Part shown: positions 38,301 to 42,005 of the stretch, piece after piece
Numbering within the stretch: the first letter of the stretch is position 1
How the letters are laid out: every line of letters begins with the position of its first letter
Assembly (NCBI GenBank): GCA_037042915.1
Contig: CM073201.1
Span: 2,666,001-2,730,000 of the forward strand
Length of the DNA: 64,000 bases
Direction of reading: 5' to 3'
From: Auricularia sp. M13
Lineage: Eukaryota; Basidiomycota; Agaricomycetes; Auriculariales; Auriculariaceae
Notes under the pieces: generated by a model
What the model was told of the DNA's origin: nothing
What the model saw: the letters and a program-made list of their open reading frames with translations, nothing else
Databases searched by the model: none
Translations under genes and position numbers: made by a program

Positions 38301-38411
38301 TTGGCTTTGCCCATGGTTGTGATAAATAAGTGTATTATTGTGTATGATATGCTCGGGACGAAAATATATACTTCCGACGACGCCGCGGAGGTCCTGGGCC
38401 ATTCACAGCTA

Positions 38412-38470
38412 AGGTAGGAACCGTGTATATTCAACCGACCCCCGTGACATGTCCCGATTAGGCAATTATG
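38412..38470 (+). repeat. Left terminal inverted repeat
   Basis: The first 30 bases pair with the right end with one mismatch. Weaker similarity (GTGACATG.CC.GATTAGGCA) continues to about 38470. Confidence 0.85.
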
Positions 38471-38644
38471 ATGTGTCCTGCGACACATTTCCTTCCTTTG
38501 CAAACCACACAAAGTATTTGAGCAAAATCGGTCTCGATGAGAAATTCAGAACATGTCCAAAGATGAAGTCTATGTAAGAACTTTGTGAATTCGGTGTCAG
38601 TTGGCGGCGGAGACCGCCGAACACCGTTGCTTCCACTTCTTTCG

Positions 38645-41247
38645 ATGCCGCCGACGAAGGCCTGGCGCAAACGGCGGGCCGCAGTGCTGCAAGGCACGCA
38701 GAATACGCTTGCTCAAACACTTACCAGCGTCAAAAGTGGCCTGAAAAGGCTTGGTTCACCTCGTAAATCACCTAGTAAAAAAGCCCGTCTGCAGGATTCC
38801 GAAAATGCGGTCCGTACAGATGATTGACAGCCATGCTTGTTGTCTAAATTAGCTTACAGGTTCCCGAGGACCATCAGCCTGTCGAGGCTCTGTCTGACTT
38901 GCACACTGGTTCCGGGTCTACACCGCGGACACCCAGTCGGGTTGCCCGCATGTTCTCGGCCTTTCCGTCTCCCACCCGGGCTCTGTTCCGTGTCCTCAAT
39001 GGAAATACACCTGTTGCTCCATCCATCCAGCCTTCTTTCACCACTGGAAAGGCGTCGGCCGATGTTTTTTTCTCCCCATTGTCCACGCCGGCACCAGCTC
39101 CTCCGTCGTTCATCCTCCAGCCACCTGCTTCACTTCCCAGCCGTCGCGCAACTGTGGAAGACATCACAGACGAGGACTCTGCATCTGTTCGTCGATTTGG
39201 CTCTGATTCAACCGCTGAATTGCCCCTGCTTCCCAACGGCGATGATTACGAATCTGACGGTGACGCTGAGGATCAGATTGTGCCCGAGTCAGTTTCTTGC
39301 CCTCCATTGGAGGACCTTCGCGATGGCATTCTCCGAGAAGCTCCCAGCATTGACATTGCGGCCAAGGCTCTGGACGACATACGCTTGAAATTTCGCAAGC
39401 ACCGTACAGATCGAAAGGGCTACATCTATTACGACATGGACCCATTTGTTCGTGCCCGGCTCGAGGGCATGAGGAACCTGCTCAGCTTTTACACCGACAA
39501 GCTCTCTGCTACCTATGGGCGCTGGGCTCAGTCTTCAGTGCAGGCGGCAGTTTCCCTAGGTCGCGGACTGCATTGTGCACGCCTGCTTCGCCAGATGGTC
39601 CGAGCATACATTGCCGACCGCACTGTTCTTCCTCTCAACCCCTATGGTGCCTGGCGAACGGCTATGCTTTGCGACCAGGATCTTGCAAATGATATTTCTC
39701 TTCATTTGCAAGAACTTGGCACGAACATCTCTGCCCAGAGCCTAGTCGACTTTCTCAGCCGTCCCGAGATTCGTGCGAAGCATGGTATCAACAAAACTAT
39801 CTCCCTTACCACTGCGCGCCGCTGGCTACATACTCTGGGCTTCCGATATCGATACGAGGGACGTGGGCAGTACACGGACGGCCATGAGCGGAAGGATGTT
39901 GTCTTTTATCGTGATCATGTCTATATTCCTGCACTGCACAAGGTCCGCACCTCCGGGCACAAAGGTATTTTGCTGACATGTTGTAGCACCTCCCTAGGAC
40001 CAGGGAGTACAACAACAACGGCGAAGAGATACATCCACAGACGCGGGAAGTGGCCACTGGGCGGCGGGTCGTTATTTGGTACCACGATGAGTCCATCTTC
40101 TATGCGCACGATCGCCGCAAAAAGTCGGACATTGACCTTGCTGTGGTGCTCTCTGACATCTTCGCAGGTGCTGGTATCACAAGGATGCTGCGCCAAAGCC
40201 CTACAAGAAAGGCGAGGGTGCCTCCCTTATGATCGCGGACTTCGTGTCCGCGGACTTTGGCTGGCTGCGCTCCCCAGATGGGAAAGAGTCTGCGCAAGAA
40301 GTATTTCGTCCCGGTGCAAATCGGGACGGCTATTTCACGAGTGAGGACATTTTGAAGCAGGCTGAACGTGCTGCGCAGCTCGTCACAACCCATTATCCCG
40401 ACTTCGAGCATGTGTTCATCTACGACAACGCGACTACACACCGCAAACGACCCGACGACGCTCTCTCCGCTCGACGCATGACCAAGTTCCCCTCAAAGTC
40501 GTCGGACAGCAATTGGATGCTTGAGCGCACTGTTGTGGATCCGGTGACCAAACGGCCCGTTCGGGGGGCCAATGGCAAGTCCTATCTCAAGGAGCGGATC
40601 CGGGTCTGCGATACCGTGAACCCCACGACCGGCGCAGCCCAGCCTCTCTATTACGCAGATGACCACCCTGTTCATCCTGGGTGCTTCAAAGGCATGGCTC
40701 AAATTCTCATTGAGCGTGGCTTTGAAGCATCTCAGTTCACCCGCGGCGGTGCAAAGAAGGCCGAGTGTCCCGGATTCAAATGTGCGGACACCGCGGCGGA
40801 CTGCTGCACTCGCCGCATGCTCTACAACCAGCCCGATTTTGCGAATGTCCCCTCCCTCTTGGAGCTTGCCATGCAGGCACATGGAATAACGGTGTTGTTC
40901 CTGCCAAAGTTCCACTGTGAACTGAACCCGATTGAGCAGTGTTGGGGGTATGCAAAGCGGGTATACCGTCTCAACCCCGAGAGCTCAAAGGAGGAGCACC
41001 TCTCTCGGAATGCTCTGGCTGCGCTGGATGAAGTTCCTCTGGTTTCTATTCGCCGGTAAGCCTTTATGGCCATGTTGGTATGAGAATGTTAACTAGTCTC
41101 AGCTTCTTCAACCGGGCACACCGGTTTGCCGATGCATACGGCTCCGGTCTCAATGGCAGGCAGTCAGCATGGGCTTGTAGGAAGTACAGGGGGCATAGAA
41201 TCGTGCCCTGGAACATCATGGAGCAGTTGGATAAGGCTGGAATATGA
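38645..41247 (+). CDS. DDE transposase, 805 residues, five exons
   Basis: Exons 38645-38809, 38860-39942, 39987-40123, 40168-41055 and 41103-41247 join in frame. A basic start (MPPTKAWRKRRAAVLQGTQN) and an acidic linker precede helix-turn-helix-like sequence (SLVDFLSRPEIRAKHGINKT then ISLTTARRWLHTLGFRY). The catalytic core follows: first Asp in VVIWYHDESIFYAHDRRKK, second in EHVFIYDNATTH, and Glu in FHCELNPIEQCWGYAKRVYR, the DDE_3-type signature of Tc1/mariner/IS630. Between the second Asp and the Glu lies a Cys-rich insertion (CPGFKCADTAADCCTRR then MLYNQPDF). All four introns are 44-50 nt with CTGAC-like branch sites. Removing them is needed for the frame, so expression depends on host splicing. 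Confidence 0.88.
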
Positions 41248-41424
41248 CTTTGTACTGTCTGGAGACATATTTTTGGGATCTGCTCTGTGAATACACCTCC
41301 CAACCTGACCATATTGGGAATCCAAAGTGGTCTTGTATGAATACTTAAAATCATCGTGACAGATCTCGCCCAAGTCTCATATTATAGGAGCAAGAGTGCT
41401 AACATCTATTTCCAGCGGCTGATT

Positions 41425-41490
41425 ACTGCCTAATTTGGGCATGTCACGTCACGTGTGACCGGGTCGGTTGAGTATACACGGTTCCTACCT
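41425..41490 (-). repeat. Right terminal inverted repeat
   Basis: This is the mirror copy of the left end. It is slightly longer because of a short GTCACGTCACGTG insertion relative to the left arm. Confidence 0.85.
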
Positions 41491-42005
41491 TAGAAAATTA
41501 AACCCGATAGTACTGGCCTACCCCCACTTTGACATTCCCTTCGCAGCGATTGATCTTCCCGAGTGGATAGACCAAATAGATCAGGGACTGGCGCAACGCA
41601 AAATGTTCACTTTGCACACCAGCATTGGATACGATTTGCTCCAACTGTACGAAGCGTTGCTGGGTGGGAATTTGCGGATGAGCATGCATATGAGCAACAT
41701 CGTCGATCGCCACCTCCGCGGAAATTCACGCCGGCAGATTCCGCCACATCGAAAGCATTATCTGATACCTTGTCTTGCGGATAGTTTAACCATTTGATAA
41801 TTCTTCGCATCCAGAAGTCTATTCCTTTATTACATTGGCCCGCAGAGCCGTCCTTGGAAAGGGGCGTTTACCGCCGATAAATGCGAGCGGAACATTAATC
41901 CCCCTCTTCAGTCTCTTACCTTCTCCTGCCATCTCGCCCCACAGGTCCTCAACAGCTCATCAATTCCAACGCGTTACCACAGACCGCTATCACACATCTA
42001 CCACA

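Follow-up and report, generated by a model that had tools for sequence, protein, structure and literature searches.

A probable autonomous IS630-Tc1-mariner transposon with unusually wide catalytic spacing in Auricularia sp. M13

Families of IS630-Tc1-mariner (ITm) transposons are defined by the spacing between the second and third catalytic residues of the transposase (D2-E). Among the families described in the parts of the literature available to us, this spacing is usually 34-41 residues. Tc1 is DD34E, mariner is DD34D, and the transposase of Tc1-CE1 has 343 amino acids (PMC9977792, in part). Sailor elements (DD82E) have been reported from 12 fungal species. According to the accessible part of PMC8533490, they have a D2-E spacing of 78-111, a target-site duplication that is mostly TATA, tips that are usually GT or CC, and a transposase of 323-676 amino acids. 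The yeast element Tc1-OP1 (DD40E) has a 50-amino-acid insert of its own between the first two aspartates and a D2-E spacing of 40 (PMC9977792, in part). The pogo/Fot1 elements, which are common fungal relatives within the ITm group, have a DDxD triad (DD30-35D) and a CENP-B-like domain (PMC7386202 and PMC7325037, both in part).

We analysed a window of 64,000 nucleotides from Auricularia sp. M13 (CM073201.1 in GCA_037042915.1), which is C9:2666001-2730000 in the 52.1-Mb, 14-contig assembly. We name each element after its contig (C9, C4, C5, C8, or C11). The C9 element lies at 38412-41490 on the forward strand of the window (3,079 bp without its TAs) and is the only full-length match in its own genome. 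An initial annotation had described matching inverted ends with TA on both sides, and this holds. The terminal inverted repeats (TIRs) are 33 nt long and 97% complementary. They lie at 38409-38441 (left, + strand, with the tip AGGTAGGAACC just inside the TA) and at 41461-41493 (right, - strand), and, counted inwards from the TA, the ends are alike at 30 of 31 positions. The TA pairs (38410-38411 and 41491-41492) sit immediately outside the element and are presumably its target-site duplication. Further in is a second inverted-repeat pair (27 nt, 81%) at 38443-38469 (+ strand) and 41422-41448 (- strand), with the motif CGTGACAT..GGCAAT, which is also present in the C4-type and C9-like short elements described below. 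This inner repeat is a candidate binding site for the transposase. The five open frames that surround the element had no Pfam matches at E 0.01.

Our gene model for the element (38645-38809, 38860-39942, 39987-40123, 40168-41055, and 41103-41247, all on the + strand) gives exactly the 805 amino acids that had been annotated, with zero internal stops. Exon 1 (55 codons from the ATG) has a homologous start in C4, and it is followed by intron 1 (38810-38859, 50 nt, GTCCGT..TTACAG). Exon 2 includes an HTH-like region ahead of the catalytic domain. After intron 2 (39943-39986, 44 nt, GTCCGC..TTGTAG), exon 3 has the first catalytic aspartate, which is residue 450 (YHDES). Intron 3 (40124-40167, 44 nt, GTCGGA..TCGCAG) separates this from exon 4, which encodes D548 (YDNATTH), a cysteine-bearing insert, and E718 (NPIEQCWG). 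Intron 4 (41056-41102, 47 nt, GTAAGC..TCTCAG) precedes exon 5, which ends with the stop codon TGA.

The frame is open once these four introns are removed, as the annotation had stated, but this is weak proof of the introns: there are 4,680 intron combinations around the four places that are equally open (with GT or GC donors, AG acceptors, and lengths of 35-130 nt), so the absence of stops alone does not fix them. By eye, introns 1-3 have weak donors; intron 4 is canonical. The boundaries that we chose, and hence the predicted splicing, have support from two relatives and from purifying selection on the protein. C5 has no intron at places 2 and 3, and its protein aligns there without gaps. C4, which is 71% identical, has intron-like gaps of differing sequence at all four places (by eye); its introns 1 and 3 would require a GC donor or a shifted GT donor. 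At place 4, C5 has a gap in the same place as well.

The predicted transposase has the D-D-E triad that had been annotated (D450, D548, and E718), with 97 residues between the two aspartates and 169 between D548 and E718. The D2-E spacing in relatives from the same genome is 165 in C5, 165 in C4, and 137 in C11, and the spacing of the first two aspartates in C5 is also 97. Exon 4 matches Pfam's DDE_3 (E 2.8e-11, with a score of 43.9 bits that exceeds the cut-off of 28.6) and NCBIfam's IS630 profile (E 1.6e-11, with a score of 44.3 bits that is far below the equivalog cut-off of 100). Upstream of the catalytic domain, there is a match to HTH_33 that is under the cut-off (E 0.05-0.13). The N-terminus is long and probably disordered. 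In the D2-E insert, four cysteines and an LYN..DF block are invariant in an alignment of four rows (C9, C5, C11, and C4), and our guess is that these cysteines might bind zinc. A single-sequence structure prediction for the open frame of exon 4 alone was unusable (mean pLDDT of 36.3). Sequence searches of the PDB found no relative (two chance-level matches in one search, with E of 0.71 and 0.93, and zero in the other).

The transposase is under purifying selection, as judged by comparing C9 to C4. In exon 2 (354 codons, 66.9% amino acid identity), dN is 0.25, dS is 1.56, and dN/dS is 0.16. In exon 4 (290 codons, 80% amino acid identity), dN is just 0.13 and the synonymous sites are saturated (pS 0.75). 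Selection this strong might be expected if the transposase were a domesticated host gene with leftover ends. However, the TIRs are intact, nearly identical, and at TA sites; the short relatives are mobile; and mobile lineages likewise show selection across a divergence as long as that between C9 and C4. We therefore consider domestication to be very improbable.

We assign the C9 element to the ITm group by its domain (DDE_3 above the gathering score, and the IS630 profile under its equivalog cut-off), its TIRs (33 nt, 97%), and its TA target, for which the direct evidence is the single TA at sites that are free of a short element, as the C9 copy itself has TA flanks only. The annotated type, Tc1/mariner-IS630, is correct in that the element encodes an IS630/Tc1-related DDE transposase and has TIRs and TA, but "Tc1/mariner" is too narrow. 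Tc1 and mariner require a spacing of 34, as against 169 here and 137-165 in the relatives. Sailor and pogo/Fot1 also differ from the element in defining features. As Sailor is described in the available part of PMC8533490, its spacing is 78-111, as against 169 here and 137-165 in three relatives; moreover, none of nine left flanks has TATA at the junction, and the element-free sites have a single TA. As to pogo/Fot1, the third catalytic residue is E718 instead of an aspartate, and there was no match to a CENP-B domain at E up to 1.

The element does resemble each of these systems in part. Like IS630 and Tc1 (DD34E), it has a DDE_3 domain, the motifs HDES, DNA, and NPIE, a TA target, and a single gene bounded by TIRs. 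Unlike them, it has a D2-E spacing of 169 instead of 34-41, a protein of 805 amino acids instead of the 343 of Tc1-CE1, four presumed introns, and AGRTAG tips. It shares an enlarged D2-E spacing with Sailor, whose consensus HCELNPIEL is close to HCELNPIEQ in C9, but compared by description it differs in the extent of that spacing (137-169 if the relatives are included), in its TA and AGRTAG, and in protein length (PMC8533490, in part). Tc1-OP1, too, has a fungal transposase of the IS630/Tc1 type whose N-terminus is long and whose DDE domain contains an insert (PMC9977792, in part).

Another group that targets TA, such as Zator, PHISTA/ESTA, or a PlavakaA-like group, might be proposed instead, because duplication of TA is not diagnostic by itself, and the presence of cysteines between D2 and E is reminiscent of the C(2)C motif of Plavaka, EnSpm, and Transib (both from the accessible part of PMC12730594). 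We think this is very unlikely, as the motifs HDES, YDNA, and LNPIEQCW and the matches to DDE_3 and IS630 all point to the ITm group, and scans of Pfam and NCBIfam at E up to 1 gave no other transposase family.

Our searches of open-access literature found no description of a DD166-171E family, and a D2-E spacing of 169 does not fit the spacing of any family that is described in the available parts of PMC7386202, PMC7325037, PMC8533490, and PMC9977792. A tentative proposal, which we think is rather less likely than its opposite, is that these elements form a separate family-level ITm lineage in fungi (DD137-169E, with TA followed by AGRTAG) that is now moving in the Auricularia genome. In this lineage, the RNase-H domain would have acquired, between D2 and E, a domain with cysteines that perhaps binds zinc and that parallels the insertion domains of CACTA, Transib/RAG, and hAT.

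The annotation had also proposed that copies and their identity be counted in the genome. We did so, and the counts are lower bounds. C9 is a single full-length copy among at least six transposase-bearing copies, which fall into four subfamilies: C9 (one copy), C4 (two, head to head), C5 (one), and C8 and C11 (one each). The C8 and C11 elements are 99.3% identical over 3,260 bp. The transposase frames of C5 and of the C8/C11 pair are largely open too (their starts and introns are unassigned), so it is doubtful that C9 stands out by being unbroken, as had been suggested.

There are also at least 10 short relatives. Three have C9-like ends; they are 733-734 bp including the TAs, are 97-99% identical to the query copy, and have a resemblance to C9 (88% identity) that is confined to some 66-74 bp at either end. 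Four are of the C4 type. Two of these (C10:2933363-2934137 and C10:2974787-2975561) are 775 bp long and 100% identical, and they occupy two separate TA sites at a distance of about 41 kb; of the others, the copy on C11 is 92% identical and the copy on C12 is in pieces. The last three have C8/C11-like ends (76-88% identical). Five element types that we aligned have in common a tip of TA followed by AGRTAG. TA was present at both outer ends of nine of nine elements and then of four of four more, as well as at the one end that was found on C12; the tip patterns used for these counts contain TA, and BLAST positions give the same ends. The C4-type element on C12 (C12:228710-229825) has an interruption of about 495 bp with a 13-base overlap at the break, which is perhaps a nested insertion.

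The two C4-type transposons at C4:1060462-1066642 (L022:1962-8142) make up a palindrome of 6.2 kb that is bounded by transposon tips. A single 16-nt tip is common to both heads, and the left outer end has that tip twice. This arrangement could have arisen if the transposon inserted itself into the tip's inner TA and the arms were then inverted. Outside the outer and central tips, the only differences between the arms are ten single-base indels, nine of them at homopolymer runs; there are zero substitutions. These indels resemble the errors of unpolished long reads and may account for the break in the frame of one arm. We doubt that the palindrome is a fold-back in the assembly, as its limits fall on transposon tips and not in flanking DNA.

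A short element at C2:1823301, which is C9-like and has tips near-identical to those of C9, sits inside a dispersed repeat. When its flanks were joined over one TA, the joined sequence had at least 25 full-site matches (86-100% identity) and two partial ones; this is a lower bound, because 40 of 71 candidates were scored. An uninterrupted site with a single TA was present in all 10 of the element-free places that we fetched. This demonstrates both TA duplication and recent movement for this short element. As the element-free sites are up to 100% identical, an enzyme that uses C9-like tips was recently present. These sites tell us neither about the movement of the C9 copy itself nor which transposase acted. 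Copies of the dispersed repeat that contain the 25 element-free sites are 86-100% identical over about 183 bp. Separately, the C5 relative (L041:1422-4391) interrupts the reading frame of what is, by eye, a Ty1/copia-like polyprotein, and there was no uninterrupted copy of this site among the genome matches listed.

The annotation had suggested that C9 is a recent insertion and possibly active. Recent movement is seen in short elements whose ends are similar to those of C9 or belong to a sister type. But C9 has no second full-length copy, and in this genome its flanks, when joined, have no match besides themselves, so this copy cannot be dated, and its own recency is plausible but unproven. 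For the other seven sites, too, the joined flanks had no match away from their own location, except for one 60-bp match (90% identity) beside the C8 element.

It could instead be that C9 is complete but silent, a single copy that is old or came in by horizontal transfer, and that the recent movement is due to sister transposases of the C4 or C8/C11 types. Such a reading agrees with the proposed structure of C9 but not with its being active now. We give this explanation a substantial chance, although somewhat short of even. It would account for there being one full-length copy, for the brief similarity between C9 and its short relatives, and for the clearest recent movement (the two identical 775-bp elements) being of the C4 type. 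On the other hand, the frame of C9 remains open for 805 codons, some user of C9-like tips was recently present, and no other full-length element with that tip was found in the genome.

We are quite confident that C9 is an ITm-group DNA transposon of the cut-and-paste kind, complete and autonomous, with a single spliced gene, and it is perhaps functional. In the 805-residue transposase that this gene would encode, a long N-terminus and an HTH-like region for DNA binding would precede a DDE domain of the RNase-H type, in which an insert would bring the D2-E spacing to 169 residues. The 31-nt ends and the inner CGTGACAT motif would be the binding sites of this transposase, which would cut the element out and insert it at a TA, duplicating that dinucleotide. 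The short non-autonomous elements were probably moved by C9 or by a sister enzyme.

We also searched for relatives outside of fungi. There were 16 pattern matches in prokaryote contigs and two in viral contigs, none of which were confirmed (the single-sequence search catches close relatives only), and there was no confirmed relative in plasmids. The only fungal collection that we searched was the window's own genome, so absence from the non-fungal sets says little. Similar proteins are common in the genomes of Agaricomycetes, so the C9-type lineage is probably not rare.

If this element is already catalogued in repeat databases, then it is merely one more transposon. Because ITm families are defined by their D2-E spacing, and spacings of 165-169 are well outside of those in the literature available to us, fungi may harbour a greater diversity of this group than has been described. 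An intact copy in a genome where short elements have recently moved would provide a natural setting for testing a fungal transposase that has a large insertion domain, and the C9 transposon would also be a candidate tool for mutagenesis of filamentous fungi.
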